Below are positions 1,557 to 60,476 of a stretch of DNA of 64,000 bases, piece by piece; within the stretch, counting starts at the first letter, position 1, and every line of letters begins with the position of its first letter. The notes below the pieces were generated by a model that was not told the DNA's origin, did no database searches, and saw only the letters and a list, made by a program, of their open reading frames with translations. Position numbers and translations under genes: made by a program. The DNA lies in assembly GCF_028750675.1 (NCBI RefSeq), contig NZ_JAQQPZ010000001.1, positions 62,001-126,000 on the forward strand, read 5' to 3'. This DNA is from Shewanella metallivivens. Its GTDB lineage: Bacteria; Pseudomonadota; Gammaproteobacteria; Enterobacterales; Shewanellaceae.

Positions 1557-4196
1557 ATGACAACTATTTCTGTAAATACTGAGCGTAAATCTACCAAGTT
1601 AGCGACGGTAAGCTACTTAAGTTTAGCGGTTTTGTTTGGTCTAGGTGGTTGCGGCGAAGCGCAACAAGCCGCTCCTGCAAACACCGTTGCGCCAGAAGCG
1701 GTCGCCAAAGAAGAAACTAGTACAAAAAATACGCTTGATTTATGGCCTGCATTAACGCCTGCTATCACTAAAGATGCTGAGCTCGAAGCTAACATTACCG
1801 CGTTGCTGAACAACATGACGGTAGAGCAAAAAGTGGCGCAGATGATCCAACCTGAAATTCGCGATATCACCGTTGAAGATATGCGCAAGTATGGTTTTGG
1901 TTCATACCTTAACGGCGGTGGTGCTTATCCTAATAATGATAAACACGCTACGCCAGCGGATTGGATTGCGTTAGCGGAATCGCTATATCAAGCCTCGGTT
2001 GACGACTCTGTCGATGGTATTAATATCCCGACAATGTGGGGAACTGATGCTGTACATGGCCATAATAATGTCATTGGGGCTACGCTATTTCCACACAACA
2101 TCGGATTAGGGGCAGCCAATAACCCCAAGCTGATTGAACAAATTGCGGCGATTACGGCTAAAGAAGTCATGGTTACTGGTATTGATTGGGTATTTGCACC
2201 TACGGTAGCAGTCGTGAGGGATGACCGTTGGGGCCGCAGTTATGAAGGCTATTCTGAAGATCCAACCATTGTTAGAGATTACTCTTTTGCCATTGTAGAA
2301 GGTTTGCAAGGCGCCGTGAGTGGTGACTTTTTATCTGATCAGCGCGTGCTGTCAACCGTTAAACATTTCTTAGGTGATGGCGGTACAGAAAAGGGCATTG
2401 ATCAGGGCGACAATATTGCCAGTGAGCAAATGTTAGTGGATGTGCATGCACAAGGGTATGTTGGTGGCTTAAATGCAGGTGCACAAAGTGTCATGGCTTC
2501 ATTTAACAGCTGGCATGGGGTTAAAAATCATGGCAATAAATATTTACTGACCGACGTACTAAAAGATCGCATGGGCTTTGACGGTTTTGTGGTGGGCGAT
2601 TGGAATGGTCACGGGCAAATTCCGGGCTGTACTAATGAGTCATGTGCCCAGGCGGCCAATGCGGGTTTAGATATCTTTATGGTGCCTACTGCGGCATGGA
2701 AACCGTTATTTGAAAATACCGTCGCACAAGTCAACAGCAGCGAAATTAGTCAAGCTCGCCTAGACGATGCGGTGTCGCGTATTTTACGCGTTAAATTTAG
2801 AGCTGGTTTGTTTGACAAGCCAAGCCCTGCTAACCGTCCATTATCAGGTAAAACCGAGTTAATTGGTCATGCAAGTCATCGCGAGGTTGCCCGTCAGGCG
2901 GTTCGTGAGTCGCTGGTGTTACTGAAAAACAATCAAAATATATTACCGTTATCGCCTAAGTTAACGGTTTTGGTTGCAGGCGATGCCGCCGACAATATTG
3001 GTAAGCAGTCTGGTGGTTGGACGATTACCTGGCAAGGTACAGACAATAAAAATGCCGACTTTCCAGGTGCAACCTCGATTTATGCCGGTATTGAGCAAGT
3101 GGTTAAGCAAGCTGGTGGTCAAGCGCTGTTAAGTCCTACTGGTGAGTTAAGCGCACAACAAAAACCAGATGTGGCTATTGTGGTGTTTGGTGAAGAGCCT
3201 TATGCCGAAGGTAACGGCGACATTGATAATCTAGAATACCAACGCGGAGATAAGCGCGATCTTGCCTTGTTAAAGCAACTAAAAGCTCAGGGTATTCCTG
3301 TGGTGTCGGTATTTATCAGTGGCCGTCCAATGTGGGTTAATGCTGAATTTAACGCATCCGATGCGTTTGTCGCAGCTTGGTTACCTGGCTCTGAAGGACA
3401 GGGCATCGCCGATGTGTTGTTTACCGATGTAGACGGTAAGGTACAGCATGATTTTGTGGGCAAATTGTCATTCTCGTGGCCTGCTACACCACAACAAACA
3501 ACGGTTAACGTGCCATTACCAACAGAATCTGCTGAGATCAAAGCGCAATATCAGCCATTGATCCCATTTGGTTACGGGCTAACTTATCAGTCGAAAGCAA
3601 GCGATGCAGTAGTGCTCGACCATTTGTCTGAAGACAATTTAGCTGCTGAGCAAACATTAGCTGATTTGCCATTGTTTGAAAGAGCCGTTAAGTCACCTTG
3701 GTCAATGTATATTGCCACTCGTGCAGAGCGTCAGGGGTTGTCTAGCAGTGTGGCGCAAAACAGTGCGTTAACGATTCGTACCATGGATCGCGTTGTGCAA
3801 GAAGATGCCCGTTTTGTGTCATTTAATGGTAGCGAGCAAGGTGTTGTTGGCTTAATTAGTAACTTCCCTCGTGACTTTAGAGCCTACAGTAATAGTGATT
3901 CAGCGTTGTCGCTAAGTATTAAATCGACCACATCATTACAAAAGCCACTTTGGTTAGGCATGGCTTGTGAAGGTGATTGTCTTCAGCAAGTTGATATTGC
4001 ACAGCAAGTGAATAGCAAGTTGGGTGAATGGCAGAGTTTAAGTTTCTCATTGGCGTGTTTTGCTCGCGCCCCAATGGACTTTGGCAAAATTACTATGCCG
4101 TTTTATCTTGCGACAGAGGCTAAAGGTGACATCAGTTTCAGTGATGTAGTGATTCAAGCTCAGCCGAGCGACAACACGATTCAATGTAAAGAGTAA
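1557..4196 (+). CDS. GH3 family exo-beta-glucosidase/glucanase, lipoprotein
   Basis: An 879-residue glycoside hydrolase family 3 enzyme expected to release glucose from the ends of beta-1,3/1,4-glucans or oligosaccharides. The N-terminus has a hydrophobic stretch ending in GLGGC, a lipobox, so it is probably membrane-anchored. The TIM-barrel domain carries GTDAVHGHNN (substrate loop) and VVGDWNGHG, where the Asp near residue 348 is the expected nucleophile. The alpha/beta sandwich domain follows, then a C-terminal extension of about 160 residues as in the marine ExoP-type enzymes. The start has AAGGATAAGGA upstream and sits 9 bp after the transporter. Together with the GH16 gene it forms a beta-glucan degradation set. 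Confidence 0.9.
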   Translation: MTTISVNTERKSTKLATVSYLSLAVLFGLGGCGEAQQAAPANTVAPEAVAKEETSTKNTLDLWPALTPAITKDAELEANITALLNNMTVEQKVAQMIQPEIRDITVEDMRKYGFGSYLNGGGAYPNNDKHATPADWIALAESLYQASVDDSVDGINIPTMWGTDAVHGHNNVIGATLFPHNIGLGAANNPKLIEQIAAITAKEVMVTGIDWVFAPTVAVVRDDRWGRSYEGYSEDPTIVRDYSFAIVEGLQGAVSGDFLSDQRVLSTVKHFLGDGGTEKGIDQGDNIASEQMLVDVHAQGYVGGLNAGAQSVMASFNSWHGVKNHGNKYLLTDVLKDRMGFDGFVVGDWNGHGQIPGCTNESCAQAANAGLDIFMVPTAAWKPLFENTVAQVNSSEISQARLDDAVSRILRVKFRAGLFDKPSPANRPLSGKTELIGHASHREVARQAVRESLVLLKNNQNILPLSPKLTVLVAGDAADNIGKQSGGWTITWQGTDNKNADFPGATSIYAGIEQVVKQAGGQALLSPTGELSAQQKPDVAIVVFGEEPYAEGNGDIDNLEYQRGDKRDLALLKQLKAQGIPVVSVFISGRPMWVNAEFNASDAFVAAWLPGSEGQGIADVLFTDVDGKVQHDFVGKLSFSWPATPQQTTVNVPLPTESAEIKAQYQPLIPFGYGLTYQSKASDAVVLDHLSEDNLAAEQTLADLPLFERAVKSPWSMYIATRAERQGLSSSVAQNSALTIRTMDRVVQEDARFVSFNGSEQGVVGLISNFPRDFRAYSNSDSALSLSIKSTTSLQKPLWLGMACEGDCLQQVDIAQQVNSKLGEWQSLSFSLACFARAPMDFGKITMPFYLATEAKGDISFSDVVIQAQPSDNTIQCKE

Positions 4197-34352: not shown

Positions 34353-36353
34353 ATGAACTGGCAATGGATTAGCAATCTTAAAATATCGCGCAAACTTGCC
34401 TTACTGGTATTACCGCCATTGTTTATCAGTATTGTATTTGGTGGGTTATTCGTCAGTAGTAAATACACTAGTAAACAACAGCTTGAGCTAGTAATAGATC
34501 TGTCTAATGTGGCTATCATTAATAGTGCATTGGTGCATGAGTTACAAAAAGAGCGCGGTATGAGCGCTGGATATATTGGTTCAAAAGGTCAGTCCTTCAA
34601 AGACGCACTTCCTAATCAGCGTAACCTCACCGACGCCCAAATAGCTCGGTTTAAGCAATTCGCTCAACAAGATGACTTTCCTACACAATTACAAGCAGCA
34701 TACGATCAAGTCGCTTCATCATTAACCCAAATCACCGCCATGCGTCGAAATGTGAGTAATTTAACCATTACAGTGGCTGAGCAGGTGAGTTATTACACTC
34801 AAATGAATACCTTACTCCTGTCTATGGTCGATGCCGCAGCCAGCCAAAGCTTGGAAAGTGAGTTGTCGATGAGACTCAAAGCATTTGCGGCTTATTTGCA
34901 ATTAAAAGAGCGTGCAGGTATTGAGCGTGCCGTGTTAAGTACCACTTTTGGCCATAGCGAGTTTGCCCCTAATTTATATCGTAAATTTGTTACATTAGTC
35001 GCCGAGCAGCACACCTATGGTGAACGCTTTATGGCGGCGGCACACAGCAGTAATATTGAGTTATTTAAACAAGCCCAACGCACTAAAGCGATGGCCGATG
35101 TACAAGCATTACGCGAAGTGGCTTTTGCACAAAACAGTGCCGCAATGCTTGCTCAAAATCCAGAAGATTGGTTCAAAATATCGACCGCAAGAATCACGAT
35201 ATTGACCCAGTTAGAAAAACAATTAGCAGATGATTTAACGCGCTTGAGTCAACAAAAACTTGACCAAGCAACAGAGCAAATGTATTTCAGTATCACGGTA
35301 TTAATCGCCGCATTAACATTTGTGATTTTTATGAGCTTAGCGGTAACTCGCTGTTTACATGACAGTTTAGCTGTTCTTCACAAAAAAATTATTCATGCAG
35401 GCAACCAATTTGATTTAACCACCCGTTTGCCACATCAATCTGAAGATGAGTTTGGCCAAATATCACAAGCCTTTAATCAAATGATGACAGAGTTCGAAGA
35501 GGTCATCGGTCAAGTGCGGATTAATGCGGTTAATCTTGTGAATGCCGTTGAGCAAATGAACGGTTACACTCGTTCACTGCAAAGCGATGTTTTACAAGGT
35601 TCGTCAGAGGCAGAACAAGTTGCCTCAGCAATGACAGAAATGAGTGCCACTGTTCATGAAATTGCCGCTAACGCTGTACAAGCATCAGACGCTTCAGCTA
35701 AAGCTAACTTAGAAGCTAAAAATGGCGAAATGGGGGTTAATAAAACCAGCGATGCTATTCAAATTTTGGCGCATGAGATTGCAGATGCCGCAGACGCCAT
35801 TGGGCGTTTAGATGCCGATGTTCAAAGTATTGTGACCATTCTCGACGTGATTAGCTCTATTGCAGAACAAACCAATTTGTTGGCACTAAATGCTGCAATT
35901 GAAGCGGCAAGGGCAGGTGAGCAAGGCCGCGGCTTTGCGGTTGTTGCCGATGAGGTACGGACTTTAGCCCAGCGTTCACAAACCTCCACTGAAGATATCA
36001 AAAACATGACTGAGCGTTTACAAACAGGGGCCGCAACCGCCGTAAGCGCAATGAAGCGTGGACAGCAACAAGCACAAGTAAGTGTTGATGAGTCTAAACT
36101 TGCTGGTAACGAGCTTAAACTTATTGCAGATCATGTTAGCGTGATTGATAGCATGAACGAACAAATTGCCGCCTCCACTCACGAACAATCTGCTGTCGCT
36201 GAAGAAGTTAATCGCAATGCGATGAAAATCACTGAGATTTATCATCATACCCAAGACATTTCACAGCAGCTTGCTAGCCTCAATGACAACCTACTCAGCG
36301 ATGCCAGCAATATGTCTCAACAAGTGAGTAAATTTACGTTATCAAAACAATAA
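34353..36353 (+). CDS. methyl-accepting chemotaxis protein with NIT sensor domain
   Basis: A 666-residue inner-membrane chemoreceptor. TM1 is at about residues 15-36 and TM2 at about 310-333. The periplasmic region is a NIT domain, marked by [16 protein letters not shown] near residue 68, a fold found in nitrate/nitrite sensors. A HAMP segment follows (about 333-390), then the methyl-accepting signalling domain with the conserved hairpin tip around [20 protein letters not shown] (about 510-530). Ligand nitrate or nitrite is a family inference. A solo repeat hairpin begins 11 bp after the stop. Confidence 0.9.
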
Positions 36354-36363
36354 AAGCCCCAGC

Positions 36364-36423
36364 AACATCTGGATCGTCCCGGTAACGCTTATAAATCCGG
36401 GATCTAAGCATTCGAGGATGACG
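36364..36423. repeat. solo copy of the CACCTGGAT...GATGACG hairpin repeat
   Basis: AACATCTGGATCGTCCCGG begins this copy and GAGGATGACG ends it; the core has the TCCCGG / CCGGGA stem also seen in copies at 58099, 59344 and 59796. It lies alone between the chemoreceptor and the DUF1415 gene, far from the two arrays. Confidence 0.75.
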
Positions 36424-36487
36424 TGCTAGAACCTAGAACCTAATCCCTTGATTTCGCAAGCGAAGCGTTTCGTATACCGTTATCAGT

Positions 36488-37033
36488 CTATGATTTAGTG
36501 CAGTGCTGTAATAACGTGACAAAAAACTCACTGCCTTTGCGCTGTGCAAAAGCAATATTACGTTCTGGGATGGATTCGGGGTCATTGTAGTTTGCTAGGG
36601 CAATTTCCATACTGGCTTCGCGAATGATGTGCAGGGTTGGGTAGGGCGCTCGATTAGTAAAATTGGCTGCACTGTCTTGTGCTTCGCCATCAAAACAGTA
36701 GTCTGGATGAAACGTTGCAAGTTGGTACACGCCTTCATAATCCTGCTGTGCTAATAAATCAGTAGCATCATCGACTAAATCTAAATAGGCATAAAATCCT
36801 TCAAACCCACGCGGCAGAATAAACAGAGTGGTTTCGACTTCTGGGTGTTTATCAAGGTATTGGCATTCATTAAGCAATGCTTTTAATACAGCCTTGACCT
36901 TAGTTTGTTCAATAGCGACATAACGGATACTGGCGCGTTCTACTTCTCTGCGAGCAAATGGGCAAATATTGTATTTCATGATGACATCAATAACCCAGCG
37001 TTCGGTGTGGGCTATGCATTCATGTTGTTCCAT
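36488..37033 (-). CDS. DUF1415 family protein
   Basis: A 181-residue protein that fits the DUF1415 family, of unknown function. Recognisable parts are WVIDVIMKYNICPFA near residue 13, TLFILPRGFEGFYAYLDLVD near residue 70 and LATFHPDYCFDG near residue 104. No signal peptide or membrane span. GAAGG lies six bases before the ATG on the minus strand. It is 17 bp downstream of the LysE-type exporter gene and is likely cotranscribed with it. Confidence 0.8.
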   Translation of the reverse strand: MEQHECIAHTERWVIDVIMKYNICPFARREVERASIRYVAIEQTKVKAVLKALLNECQYLDKHPEVETTLFILPRGFEGFYAYLDLVDDATDLLAQQDYEGVYQLATFHPDYCFDGEAQDSAANFTNRAPYPTLHIIREASMEIALANYNDPESIPERNIAFAQRKGSEFFVTLLQHCTKS

Positions 37034-48163: not shown

Positions 48164-48526
48164 ATGTCAACGAACCAAAACCAAAGCAAACTCGATAAAG
48201 TGCTAGCAGAAGCCCGAGAGTACAAAGCCACCCGAGAAAAGGGCTATCGTGAACAAGCACTTAAACTATACCCATGGGTTTGTGGCCGTTGTACACGCGA
48301 GTTTACTCATAAAAACCTAGCCGAACTGACCGTACACCACCGCGATCACAACCATGATAATAACCCATCAGATGGTTCAAATTGGGAACTACTTTGCTTG
48401 TATTGTCACGACAACGAGCATTCACGCTTTGAAGAGTTAATACGATACGGCAGCACCAAAGAAGCAAAACAAGAAGCGGCAACCTACAATCCATTTGCAG
48501 ACTTAAAAGCCATGATGAAAAAGTAG
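48164..48526 (+). CDS. YajD-like HNH nuclease
   Basis: A 120-residue protein of the YajD type. The HNH nuclease core is CGRCTREF near residue 37, VHHRDHNHDNNP near residue 52 and LLCLYCHDNEHSR near residue 72, giving the zinc Cys pairs and catalytic His residues. E. coli YajD is of similar size and unknown role. The start ATG has no strong ribosome site. It lies just after a terminator and 130 bp before the first repeat array; a link to the array is not shown. Confidence 0.83.
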   Translation: MSTNQNQSKLDKVLAEAREYKATREKGYREQALKLYPWVCGRCTREFTHKNLAELTVHHRDHNHDNNPSDGSNWELLCLYCHDNEHSRFEELIRYGSTKEAKQEAATYNPFADLKAMMKK

Positions 48527-48649
48527 GGCGTACCCATCGTTTGGACTATGCCCGTGAATAGGTTGTTCAAACAACGCAAACGTTATGTGAACACTCGGTT
48601 TCAAACAACATCCACTAACACGTTGTTTGCTCATTCATAGTCAAACACT

Positions 48650-49972
48650 GCCCACTACACCGTCGTTCCGGCAATGCTTTTGAGCCGGAATCTAGGTGTT
48701 GGCTTTTGCTCTTATGTCTTTTCTTGCAGGACGAAGTCCGTCCTTGTCGCTTGCAGAAAGCGCCCTTGATACTTAAAAGAAACACCTGGATCCCCGCCAA
48801 AGGCATGCGAGGATGACCTGCGAGTGGCGCATGACAGCGATGACCATAGCTGCATCATCCAACCCCGCCCACTACTCCGTCATTTGCTCATTCTTATTCA
48901 GATGCAGCCCACTACTCCGTCGTTCCGGCAGTGCTTTTGAGCCGGAATCCAGGTGTTTAGTCCGTCATTCCAGCAATGATGCTACTCCGTCATTTGCTCA
49001 TTCTTATTCAGATGACGCCCACTACACCATCGTTCCGGCAATGTTTTTGAGCCGGAATCCAGGTGTTGGCTTTTGCTCTTATGTCTTTCTTGCAGGACGA
49101 AGTCAGTCCTTGTCACTTGCAGCGTCGCGCCCTTGATACTTAACAGCAACACCTGGAACCCTGATAAAAGCACTCAGGGATGACGGCATAGAGCAACACC
49201 TGGATCCCCGCTAAAGGCATGCGAGGATGACGTGCGGGTGGGGCATGACAGCGATGACCATAGCTGCATCATCCAACCCCGCCCACTACACCATCGTTCC
49301 GGTAATGCTATTGAGCCGGAATCCAGGTGTTGGCTTTTGCTCTTATGCCTTTCTTGCAGGACGAAGTCAGTCCTTGTCACTTGCAGCGTCGCGCCCTTGA
49401 TACTTAAAAGAAACACCTGGATCCCCGCTAAAGGCATGCGAGGATGACGTGCGGGTGGGGCATGACAGCGATGACCATAGCTGCATCATCCAACCACGCC
49501 TACTACTCCGTCATTTGCTCATTCTTATTCAGATGACGCCCACTACACCGTCGTTCCGGCAATGCTTTTAGCCGGAATCTAGGTGTTGGCTTTTGCTCTT
49601 ATGTCTTTTCTTGCAGGACGAAGTCCGTCCTTGTCACTTACAGCGAAGCGACCTTGATACTTAAAAGAAACACCTAGATCCCCGCCAAAGGCATGCGAGG
49701 ATGACGAGCGGGTGGGGCATGACAGCGATGACCATAGCTGCATCATCCAACCAAGCCCACTACTCCGTCATTCCAGCAATGATGCTACTCCGTCATTCCA
49801 GCAATGATGCTACTCCGTCATTAGCTGATTCGTATTCAGATGCCGCCCACTACACCGTCGTTCCGGCAATGCTGTTGAGCCGGAATCCAGGTGTGTCTTT
49901 AGCACATTTGCATTGACTTGCAGGACGAAGTCCGTCCTTGTCACTTGCAGCAAAGCGACCTTGATACTTCAT
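48650..49972. repeat. repeat array A: tandem composite units with inverted hairpins
   Basis: No real gene is seen in the 1.47 kb between the HNH gene and the DUF1289 gene. It holds six hairpins of type H1 (GTTCCGG...GCCGGAATC, starting near 48663, 48920, 49030, 49294, 49552, 49859) and five of type H2 (AACACCTGGAT..., starting near 48781, 49149, 49195, 49412, 49669). Between H1 and H2 lies a filler of about 80 bp containing the GGACGAAGTCCGTCC hairpin; between H2 and the next H1 another of about 100 bp. Unit length is near 260 bp. H1 is an inverted member of the same family as H2. The last unit breaks off before its H2. Confidence 0.9.
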
Positions 49973-49994
49973 CTTAGTCACTTTGAATACACTT

Positions 49995-50222
49995 TTACCG
50001 CTTTAAACGCTTTTCAGCATCTAACCATTTGGCGCGAGACAGGGTTTGGTTATTAGTCTCACCCAAAAACTGTTGTTTTCTGTCGGCTAATTTATCAATA
50101 ATCTGTTGTTGCTGTTCATCAGAAGCACTCGACCAAGTTACAATTTCATCAATATGACGAAAACATCCCATACAAAAATCTTCTTCATTAAGGCCACAAC
50201 GGGCGACACAAGGCGAGTGCAT
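49995..50222 (-). CDS. DUF1289 family small Cys-rich protein
   Basis: A 75-residue protein matching DUF1289: the N-terminal SPCVARCGLNEEDFCMGCFR holds four Cys, likely a metal or Fe-S site, followed by the typical EIVTWSSASDEQQ. Function is unknown. It runs toward array A and ends about 20 bp from it. Divergent from the methyltransferase gene. Confidence 0.85.
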   Translation of the reverse strand: MHSPCVARCGLNEEDFCMGCFRHIDEIVTWSSASDEQQQQIIDKLADRKQQFLGETNNQTLSRAKWLDAEKRLKR

Positions 50223-57955: not shown

Positions 57956-57965
57956 CTTGGCTTTG

Positions 57966-58626
57966 ACTGTTGGTCTTTCTTGCAGGACGAAGTCCGTGAT
58001 TGTCACTTGCAGCTAAGCGACCTTGATACTTAACAGCAATACCTGGATCCCTGATAACAGATCTCAGGGATGACGGCAAAAGATGACGGGCGGTGAAGAA
58101 ACACCTGGATCGTCCCGGTAACTCTTATAAATCCGGGATCTAAGCCCTCAGGGATGACGGCAAAAGATGACGAGCGGTGAAGAAACACCTGGATCCCCGC
58201 CAAAGGCATGCGAGGATGACGTGCGGGTGGGGCATGACAGCGATGACCATAGCAGCATCATTCAACCACGCCTACTACTCCGTCATTAGCTGATTCGTAT
58301 TCAGATGACGCCCACTACACCGTCGTTCCGGCAATGCTTTTGAGCCGGAATCCAGGTGTTGGCTTTTGCTCTTATGTCTTTTCTTGCAGGACGAAGTCCG
58401 TCCTTGTCACTTGCGGCAAAGCGCCCTTGATACTTAAAAGCAACACCTGGATCCCTGATAACAGATCTCAGGGATGACGGCAAAAGATGACGGGCGGTGA
58501 AGCAACACCTGGATCCCCGCTAAAGGCATGCGAGGATGACGAGCATAAAGAGCAACACCTAAAACCAAACGCCGCTTACTACTCCGTCGTTCCGGTAATG
58601 ATTTTTGAGCCGGAATCCAGGTGTTG
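57966..58626. repeat. repeat array B (left of the GIY-YIG gene)
   Basis: The array starts about 10 bp after mdeA with a filler that lacks its left hairpin. H2-type hairpins start near 58036, 58099, 58183, 58442 and 58503; a broken one lies near 58553. H1-type hairpins start near 58323 and 58587. Four different stem sequences occur among the H2 copies, each still able to pair. The last H1 ends in GGTGTT at 58620-58625, directly before the GIY-YIG segment. Confidence 0.9.
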
Positions 58627-58728
58627 ATTTTTATCTTTTGTAATTGGTTACAGATTTAAAGCTCTGACGCTGTGCAACGAAGCTCACAATTAACTGCTAT
58701 ATTTTTTACATTATTTAAGCAGAGCAAA

Positions 58729-59016
58729 ATGTTTATGGTTAAGCAATCATATATCTACATAATGGCGAATCGGCCTAATGGCACATTATATATTGGTGTA
58801 ACCTCTAATTTGGTGAGGCGCGTGTACGATCATAAAGCCGGTTTAAATGATGGTTTTACTAAAAAGTATTCAATTAACCAATTGATTTACTACGAAGTGT
58901 TTGATGATATATATAATGCAATTTCGAGAGAGAAACAGCTTAAAAATTGGAAGCGAGAATGGAAAATAGGATTAATTGAAAAATTTAATCCACGCTGGGA
59001 AGATCTTGAAATCTAG
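58729..59016 (+). CDS. GIY-YIG nuclease domain protein embedded in the repeat array
   Basis: A 95-residue single-domain protein of the GIY-YIG (URI) type. The motifs are complete: YIYIM (GIY) at residues 9-13, LYIGVT (YIG) near residue 21, the catalytic Arg in LVRRVYDHK near residue 30, and the metal-binding Glu in ISREKQLKNW near residue 67. It should cut or nick DNA. Starts at 58729 or 58735 are both possible; ribosome site is weak. Repeat hairpins flank it closely on both sides in inverted orientation, with ends GGTGTTG and AAAAGAAACACC also shared by the short array fillers. It could therefore be the enzyme that spreads these repeats; that is inference. Confidence 0.85.
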   Translation: MFMVKQSYIYIMANRPNGTLYIGVTSNLVRRVYDHKAGLNDGFTKKYSINQLIYYEVFDDIYNAISREKQLKNWKREWKIGLIEKFNPRWEDLEI

Positions 59017-59039
59017 AGATTAAAAATAAGGTCAAAAGA

Positions 59040-59857
59040 AACACCTGGATCCCTGATAAAAGCACTCAGGGGTGACGGCATAGAGCAACACCTGGATCCC
59101 CGCCAAAGGCATGCGAGGATGACGTGCGGGTGGGGCATGACAGCGATGACCATAGCAGCATCATTCAACCACGCCTACTACTCCGTCATTAGCTGAATTG
59201 TATTCAGATGACGCCCACTACACCGTCGTTCCGGCAATGTTTTTGAGCCGGAATCCAGGTGTTGGCTTTTACTCTTATGTCTTTTCTTGCTGGACGAAGT
59301 CCGTCCTTGTCACTAGCAGCGAAGCGACCTTGATACTTAACAGCAACACCTGGATCGTCCCGGTAACTCTTATAAATCCGGGATCTAAGCACTCAGGGAT
59401 GACGGCATAGAGCAACACCTGGATCCCCGCTAAAGGCATGCAAGGATGACGTGCGGCTGGGGCATGACAGCGATGACCATAGCTGCATCATCCAACCACG
59501 CCTACTACTCCGTCATTAGCTGATTCGTATTCAGATGACGCCCACTACTCCGTCGTTCCGGCAACGCTTTTAAAGCCGGAATCCAGGTGTTGGCTTTTGC
59601 TCTTATGTCTTTTCTTGCAGGACGAAGTCCGTCCTTGTCACTTGCAGCAAAGCGCCCTTGATACTTAAAAGAAACACCTGGATCCTCAATGGAAGCACTC
59701 GAGGATGACGGCAAAAGATGACGGGCGGTGAAGCAACACCTGGATCCCTGATAACAGATCTCAGGGATGACGGCAAAAGATGACGGGCGGTGAAGAAACA
59801 CCTGGATCGTCCCGGTAACTCTTATAAATCCGGGATCTAAGCACTCGAGGATGACGG
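59040..59857. repeat. repeat array C (right of the GIY-YIG gene)
   Basis: Continuation of array B after the GIY-YIG gene. H2-type hairpins start near 59040, 59087, 59344, 59412, 59672, 59734 and 59796; H1-type near 59226 and 59553. The short filler with GGACGAAGTCCGTCC recurs at about 59290 and 59620. No real gene is present; apparent ORFs are repeat translations. The array stops about 120 bp before the Ala/Gly-rich gene. Confidence 0.9.
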
Positions 59858-59932
59858 AAAAAACTGACGAGCGGGTAGAGCAACAATACCTACCAGCTAC
59901 CACCTAGTTCCTTCTTTTACAAACACCCACAA

Positions 59933-59975: not shown

Positions 59976-60476
59976 TTAGTTGCCAGAAGCACCAGCTCCG
60001 CCGCCGCCACCACCGCCGCCATTATTACCACCGCTGTTACCGTTACCACTGCCAGGGTTTGGTCTATTAGCCGCTGCAATCGCTACAGGGTTGTTAGAGT
60101 TAGCAGCGTTATTCGAACCAGCAGCAGTTGCAGCATTGGTTGCCGCAGTCACTACACTAGCAGACACGCCGTTTACTGCAGCAACAGCTGCAATTTTGTC
60201 TTGTGATACACCTGCTGTGGTCGCAGCAGCAAGAATTTTAGCTTGTGCAGCTTCGTCAGTGCCAGCCGCTTGTAGTGCAGCTGCCAAAATGGCTTCTGCT
60301 TCTTCTGCGGTTGCTCCAGCAAGCATTTGTTCAGTGTAATCGCCTACAGTGCCAGCGGCTACTGCGGCTTCTAAGCCTGCGTTGTAATCGTCCAGGCTGG
60401 CAGCTGAAACACCGGCAGACATCCCAGTTGTCAACAGCGCTGAAACAAGTAATAAAGAGAGTTTATTTTTACGCAT
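59976..60476 (-). CDS. secreted Ala/Gly-rich protein, function unknown
   Basis: A 166-residue exported protein that I do not recognise. A signal peptide (residues 1-25) has a Leu-rich core (LSLLLVSALLTTGMS) and likely cleavage after VSA. The middle (about 27-125) is Ala-rich and helical, with loosely repeated blocks such as EEAEAILAAALQAA and AQAKILAAATTAG. The tail is Asn/Gly-rich and ends in a run of eight Gly. Low complexity makes family calls unsafe. Its ATG touches the lapD stop (shared base 60476), so it is probably translated from the lapG-lapD transcript. Confidence 0.7.
   Translation of the reverse strand: MRKNKLSLLLVSALLTTGMSAGVSAASLDDYNAGLEAAVAAGTVGDYTEQMLAGATAEEAEAILAAALQAAGTDEAAQAKILAAATTAGVSQDKIAAVAAVNGVSASVVTAATNAATAAGSNNAANSNNPVAIAAANRPNPGSGNGNSGGNNGGGGGGGGAGASGN

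Follow-up and report, generated by a model that had tools for sequence, protein, structure and literature searches.

In the available sections of Di Nocera et al. 2013 (PMC3733652), CGTC-REPs are described as one of two large REP superfamilies, with a YGTC end, an 8-9 bp stem that almost always starts with AT and a CCA-like tail, mostly arranged head-head. What moves these repeats is left open there: CGTC-REPs seem to be without a dedicated transposase, no CGTC-flanked gene for a tyrosine transposase was found according to those sections, and CGTC REPtrons are suggested to have perhaps disappeared early. The closest described systems are the RAYT (TnpA-REP) REPtrons with their GTAG-REPs and REPINs, which, as far as the accessible parts of PMC3733652, PMC6006769 and PMC8266576 go, resemble the locus described here, a small GIY-YIG gene between two inverted CGTC-REPs, in the low-copy REP-flanked nuclease gene, the genome-wide REP pairs and the patchy distribution. 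They differ in the enzyme, which is an HUH tyrosine enzyme there and a GIY-YIG nuclease here, and in the repeats, which carry the GTAG tag there and the CGTC tag with a CCA tail here. A RAYT REPtron has a gene with REPs on either side that are repeated elsewhere in the genome, and the unit has this layout with CGTC-REPs; it is outside the RAYT REPtron family, though it probably works like one, and only the architecture is common to both.

The locus lies in a 64,000-nucleotide stretch of Shewanella metallivivens DNA (hereafter the window), in which an intact GIY-YIG gene is set between inverted hairpins of the kind that makes up two arrays (Table 1). This arrangement, described in an earlier note on the same DNA, can be read directly at 58585-59077; both arrays are real, and the length of about 80 bp that the note gave for the short fillers between paired hairpins is borne out between the GGTGTT and AACACC tails (98-99 nt from CCA to TGG). 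Within the unit, a plus-oriented hairpin (CGTCGTTCCGG...CCGGAATCCAGG, starting at 58585) is followed by the GGTGTTG tail, a 5' region, the coding sequence, a short 3' region, the AACACC tail and a minus-oriented hairpin (CCTGGATCCCTGA...TCAGGGGTGACG, last base 59077). The window's hairpins fit the CGTC-REP class, with a YGTC end, a stem, a loop, a CCA tail and mostly head-head pairs; many left REPs in the window's clade have a stem that starts with GT instead of AT. The GTAG tag is absent from the unit's REPs, which start with YGTC and end with CCA. The unit's hairpins also fit CGTC-REP families 1-4, among them Neisseria dRS3 and R. conorii RPE-4/RPE-6, for which the available text of PMC3733652 gives no dedicated transposase, whereas the unit here contains a nuclease gene. 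The array carrying the unit is bounded by a Cys/Met PLP-enzyme gene and by a 166-aa ORF and a LapD-like gene. This ORF (59976-60476, minus strand) has a glycine-rich C-terminal end, gave no match in a Pfam search and also adjoins the LapD-like gene in six sister genomes.

Table 1 Features of the REP-bounded GIY-YIG unit and of the REP arrays in the window
Feature	Positions	Strand	Remarks
Whole REP-bounded unit, 493 bp	58585..59077	+	same locus and same layout in six sister species
Left CGTC-type REP	58585..58619	+	L type, CGTC-GTTCCGG..CCGGAAT-CCA; outer end CGTC
GGTGTTG tail behind left REP	58620..58626	+	AACACC ahead of right REP is the inverted counterpart
GIY-YIG nuclease CDS	58729..59016	+	95 aa (alternative ATG at 58735 gives 93 aa)
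Right CGTC-type REP	59046..59077	-	R type, TGGATCCCTGA..TCAGGGGTGACG; outer end GACG
REP array carrying the unit (site iii)	about 57960..59900		
Short filler of a REP pair, site iii array	58355..58447		~80 bp between tails
Second short filler, site iii array	59586..59678		
Second REP array, without gene (site ii)	48525..50004		
Solitary REP-like stretch (site i)	36343..36494		

The product of the gene matches PF01541 (E 2e-17), and GIY-YIG is the sole domain that the search returned, with neither an HUH Y1 tyrosine transposase domain nor an accessory DNA-binding domain found in the 95-aa protein. Residues Y20, R30, E67 and N86 (numbered from base 58732) are invariant across 64 homologues, as are columns G22, H34, K71, R75, K78, W89 and D91 (the roles of the residues are taken from general knowledge and PMC1564403). 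The predicted structure has a pLDDT of 92.9, and its nearest fold in Foldseek is UPF0213 1zg2 (E 5e-4), the sole match below 0.001; structures of SLX1, from the branched-DNA nuclease SLX1-SLX4, follow from E 7e-3 and are weak matches. The conserved Y, R, E and N together with the predicted fold place the protein in the GIY-YIG superfamily. It resembles the UPF0213, YhbQ and prokaryotic SLX1-like proteins (available part of PMC1564403; PDB 1zg2, 1ywl) in having a single GIY-YIG domain, and these are its nearest solved folds. Judged by sequence, membership in the prokaryotic SLX1 group is doubtful because N86 is invariant here, while PMC1564403, in the same part, treats that group as DNA repair enzymes without the C-terminal Asn to which N86 may correspond. 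The words "palindrom" and "inverted" were not found in the accessible portion of that 2006 superfamily survey. In the records seen, homologues carry no more specific annotation than "GIY-YIG nuclease family protein" or "excinuclease ABC subunit C", or are called hypothetical.

The pairing of a GIY-YIG gene with a class of REPs, distinct from the RAYT systems, which the earlier note put forward from this locus, recurs well beyond the window. Its first sign was an eight-mer, GTCATTCC, upstream of 40 of the 78 loci in a wide set (the best 80 of 559 matches, minus two duplicate Shewanella loci) and at one locus at a control distance. A hairpin finder searching up to 350 bp on either side located inverted CGTC-REPs on both sides of the gene in 52 of these 78 loci and, the window's own included, in 16 of the 29 loci from Shewanellaceae, with a few doubtful assignments (for example, L016 and L053); minus-strand loci carry swapped left and right labels in this count, which leaves the both-sided number unaffected. 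A separate phylum sample (28 new loci, similarity-ranked, from 75 positive genomes, less five cut by contig ends) gave 14 of 23, two of which (L249 and L264) have one hairpin that looks spurious by eye. Chance bracketing was rejected on two controls: REPs stand on both sides of 0.5% of 2170 pseudo-genes of the same length placed elsewhere in the same loci, and of none of the 30 copies, plus a further three, of the housekeeping YhbQ-like GIY-YIG paralogue, which, unlike the REP-type gene, is present in 96/96 Shewanellaceae genomes. The positive loci come from Pseudomonadota, Omnitrophota, several groups of Patescibacteria, Campylobacterota, Bacteroidota, Planctomycetota, Chloroflexi, Nitrospinales, Myxococcales and others, many of the wide loci being metagenome bins whose taxonomy is possibly wrong.

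The REP-bounded units of the wide set (best 80 of 559) are 348-844 bp long, with a median of 385, and 39 of the 52 do not exceed 500 bp. In 11 of the 52, at most 16 nt lie between the left REP and the aligned start and 0-5 nt between the stop and the right REP; two loci have the right REP directly abutting the stop. The reading frame enters the right REP in eight wide loci, such as L051 and L078, where the REP would encode C-terminal residues. After minus-strand loci were reoriented, left and right stems in the wide set matched within a locus at a mean of 6.1 of 7 positions, compared with 5.1 when shuffled (the maximum of 2000 shuffles being 5.4), with 22 exact matches against 6.7 expected; in the 16 Shewanella loci, where left and right REPs are two distinct types, no within-locus matching beyond shuffling was found. 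At least three matching end nucleotides occur in 2/52 loci (shuffled mean 1.0), and a DDE-type insertion sequence was rejected, target-site duplications not being found. Immediately outside both REPs of L091 there is a direct repeat of at least 10 nt, probably array spacing and not a target duplication, and the unit of L057 (Polaromonas) is nested in a larger outer inverted repeat (CATGCTTTTCCCT / AGGGAAAAGCATG).

We consider it probable that the gene makes up, together with the inverted CGTC-REPs on its two sides, a single REPtron-like element with a GIY-YIG nuclease in place of the RAYT, a reading that draws, at the level of sequence, on the bracketing across phyla, the co-occurrence of gene and REPs, presence and absence between relatives, short pairs that share the unit's ends and purifying selection on a protein whose active site is intact.

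Sites without the unit were found in the relatives Shewanella G067, G105 and G117. In the window's clade the gene-bearing array sits at one locus in seven species, with two copies in G026 (the window and G064 share 94% DNA identity over the neighbouring gene), and neither REP nor gene was found in the orthologous spacer of G067 and G105. G117 lacks the unit present in G095, with flanks at 89 and 94% identity and a junction that is not clean. The site ii array is present in G000, G026 and G064, and no REP was found in the orthologous spacer of G067, G114, G034, G105 and G111; these spacers are too diverged between Shewanella for exact junctions to be read. At site i, G026 has an array and G111 has three REPs, and none was found in G067, G114 and G034. 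Outside Shewanella, 8 nt separate the alignable flanks in Chelatococcus G492, compared with 977 nt of REPs and gene in L067. Judged by coverage, the unit is present on seven of eleven related Sphingobium plasmids and missing from the other four; four carriers, including TomTYG73, whose gene has a one-base gap, were aligned with the four that lack it. At the unit's place TomTYG64 has a single symmetric palindrome, CGTCACCCCGGGTCAAGCCCGGGGTGACG, in which the outer half of the left REP is joined to the right REP; TomTYG74 has the same type of palindrome with mismatches, and TomTYG72 and TomTYG65 have other sequences there. The TomTYG64 palindrome may be a target, or else a scar left when the sequence between repeated half-stems was deleted.

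If it is a target, the unit could be of a homing type, with the nuclease cutting an uninterrupted palindrome and the unit being copied in by break repair, so that each REP is half target and half element. The palindromes of TomTYG64 and, with mismatches, TomTYG74 look as such a target would, no target duplication was found, and GIY-YIG is a known homing fold (available part of PMC1564403); the unit shares with homing endonucleases of the I-TevI type both the nuclease fold and presence or absence at a fixed site. We nevertheless hold this reading to be unlikely: the palindrome is equally expected from deletion between repeated half-stems, symmetric CGTC...GACG palindromes seldom occur (four across 138 loci, 0.99 Mb), the 95-aa protein has no accessory DNA-binding domain, and no homologue was found among 50,697 phage records. 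Compared with the I-TevI type, the unit also has no intron that we could see and has REPs as its boundaries. A phage homing gene was rejected on the phage records, and symmetric palindromes as a common target were rejected for their rarity. The symmetric palindromes at L240 1223-1250 and L096 3673-3702 are apparently two fused REP halves and are possible scars or targets.

The gene could instead serve its host, with the nuclease processing the hairpins or cruciforms of REPs to maintain the genome or to control expression, in which case it would be domesticated and not selfish. It is under purifying selection (dN/dS of 0.02-0.15 across 21 Shewanella pairs, several dS values being saturated), it keeps the same locus in seven Shewanella species, and 50 carrier genomes have one to five matches each (the window's genome has one copy and one distant paralogue of 35% identity). 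A host function is tentative at best, given that the gene is patchily distributed (28/146 Shewanellaceae genomes and 75/299 in the phylum sample) and that the unit is missing from its site in relatives.

The reading of gene and REPs as one element also bears on the short REP pairs, which the earlier note, from an agreement of outer bases in the window, took for deletion forms of the gene unit. The comparison was made by shuffles that preserve base composition only (Shewanella, Rhizobium and S. meliloti alike), with counts uncorrected for the 45 filler-unit pairs compared in Shewanella. For the window's own pair the agreement did not stand: beyond the REP tails, the similarity between filler and unit is reached by 81/500 shuffles at the left end and 351/500 at the right, and the window's fillers as derivatives of its own unit were rejected as not significant. 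The left end of the window's filler does match the unit of the sister species G091 (0/500; right end 80/500). In sister species, the short fillers are mostly 41-55 nt and resemble gene units at both ends. With its right end the window's unit matches all eight sister-species fillers compared (0-2/500), and with its left end it matches one clearly (0/500) and the other seven at 18-176/500; right-end matches are weak for the G091 unit (6-181/500) and, against sister-species fillers, strong to moderate for the G114 and G026 units (0-24/500). In the clade's arrays that were examined, 45/47 plus-oriented REPs are of the L type and 65/68 minus-oriented REPs are not, so that the left-right order is that of the gene unit. 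Rhizobium sp. CIAT894 has two short pairs with the unit's inner right end (0/2000 each), one of which matches at the left end as well (0/2000; the other, 97/2000), and a short pair of S. meliloti Ak57 (L216 2659-2818) consists of the unit's left end joined to the gene's final 27 codons (92.6% identity by tblastn, E 8e-17). Because of these shared ends in Rhizobium and sister Shewanella and the 3' end of the gene in S. meliloti, some short REP pairs are, on the evidence of their sequences, internal-deletion derivatives of the gene unit in the manner of MITEs, and the note's claim stands for these lineages. As 141 of 142 distinct short pairs have no recognisable gene remnant, the gene may in general have been inserted into a pre-existing REP pair instead. 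The window's fillers, such as 58355-58447, carry a different core, with GCAGGACGAAGTCCGTCC, and GGACGCAGTCC stretches like this core are also present in spacers of G114 and G111 that have no REP; by its sequence the core may be another Shewanella intergenic repeat.

The 141 pairs without a remnant would also suit a gene that is a passive passenger, an ordinary small nuclease lodged in intergenic REP pairs that tolerate inserts, with the REPs spread by something else, and REPs without the gene do occur (68/224 phylum genomes). Against this stand the same bracketing in many phyla, the coupled variation of left and right stems across the wide set, the absence of bracketing from a paralogue of similar size and the same family (0/30) and the spacing of a few nucleotides in 11/52 loci, and we regard a mere passenger as quite improbable.

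Gene and REPs tend to occur in the same genomes. Within Shewanellaceae, the REP pattern is matched in 24/28 carriers of the gene and 25/118 non-carriers, and at least ten times in 17/28 and 5/118, respectively; in the phylum sample, it is matched in 55/75 carriers and in 68/224 non-carriers, and at least five times in 43/75 and 26/224. Fisher's test gives p of about 1e-10 for each of family and phylum with kinship ignored, which overstates the significance because the genomes are related. The reversed REP pattern, used as a control, has 0-2 matches per genome. No match to the REP pattern was found in 20/75 carriers of the phylum sample and 4/28 of Shewanellaceae, and, conversely, four Shewanella (G125, G046, G128 and G117, three of them drafts and G117 a single contig) have REPs and the YhbQ-like paralogue as the only GIY-YIG gene found. 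In Chelatococcus, sequence from the unit and its surroundings was matched 113 and 148 times in the two species whose gene is REP-flanked, 13 times in G491, where two other gene copies are present without flanking REPs, and 4 times in G492, where there is no gene copy; four further Chelatococcus gene copies are unflanked. A Y1 transposase of the RAYT/IS200 type was matched in 9/20 genomes searched and had no match in 7 of the 15 REP-bearing carriers searched (G064, G026, G114, G111, G222, G172 and G188), in line with a partner distinct from RAYT, and RAYT in trans as the sole mover is disfavoured. That RAYT or other Y1 transposases move the CGTC-REPs in trans, as raised in the available sections of PMC3733652, with the GIY-YIG gene in a side role, is very hard to credit despite the nine genomes with matches, in view of the seven carriers without one, of Shewanella G105, where 11 Y1 matches stand beside just 3 to CGTC-REPs and a REP-type GIY-YIG gene was not found, and of the lack of a CGTC-flanked tyrosine transposase gene in those sections.

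Under the REPtron-like reading, the GIY-YIG protein would recognise the REP hairpin, whether it is extruded from duplex DNA or lies open on a single strand at the replication fork, and cut at or near it, and the break would be repaired by copying another REP-bounded unit. Such copying could multiply short pairs in trans, build up arrays locally and occasionally move a whole unit, and collapse between repeated half-stems could take a unit out, with a symmetric CGTC...GACG palindrome left behind. DNA hydrolysis by GIY-YIG enzymes is not known to pass through a covalent intermediate, and strand transfer as carried out by RAYT is therefore unlikely. Repair by copying would give no target duplication, in line with the counts at the unit ends, and whole-unit movement would be rare in the window's clade because the gene stays at one locus there. 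Both the cleavage and the transposition by the GIY-YIG system are what we infer from the sequences compared.

Since the pairing of gene and repeat recurs in many phyla, a common class of hairpin repeats in bacteria probably owes its spread to this enzyme, the partner that had been missing. More broadly, we lean towards the view that CGTC-REPs are a second, independently evolved bacterial REP system, made and spread in many phyla by single-domain GIY-YIG nucleases in REP-bounded units of roughly 350-500 bp, a view that takes in the Neisseria dRS3 and the rhizobial and rickettsial palindromes. The REP-bounded GIY-YIG gene is a concrete, testable candidate for the mover of CGTC-REPs. If it is the mover, hairpin repeats gained nuclease partners at least twice, a gene family so far annotated generically has a mobile role, and the units would be among the smallest gene-bearing mobile units known; the protein may also offer a very small, perhaps DNA-hairpin-specific, nuclease. 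Both parts are known singly, and their link is new as far as the open-licence literature shows: no earlier report of it was found there in PMC, among the matches listed, nor in the accessible parts of PMC12306157, PMC6006769, PMC8266576 and PMC9465073, and the term GIY-YIG does not occur in PMC3733652. According to the accessible part of PMC9465073, a RAYT and a GIY-YIG gene are both among the clade-specific genes of Moraxella catarrhalis, and the text draws no connection between the two.

Homologues were found in 33 of 72,556 plasmid records. Among eight regions examined from this collection, the gene is flanked by inverted REPs in L219, L221 and L222 by the finder and in L216 by eye, and no nearby REPs were found in L218 and L220 (Rhizobiaceae). 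The remaining two, L217 and L223, belong to N. gonorrhoeae (NZ_CP119140 and NZ_CP119142) and recall the Neisseria NIME/dRS3 arrays of REP-bounded fillers, with the GIY-YIG gene inside; they differ from the unit in that the nearest REPs are tail-to-tail, the opposite of the usual layout. In both, the homologue lies within an array of CGTC-1 type REPs around 2300-3700, which in N. gonorrhoeae are the dRS3 according to the available text of PMC3733652. Both records are chromosome-sized although filed as plasmids.
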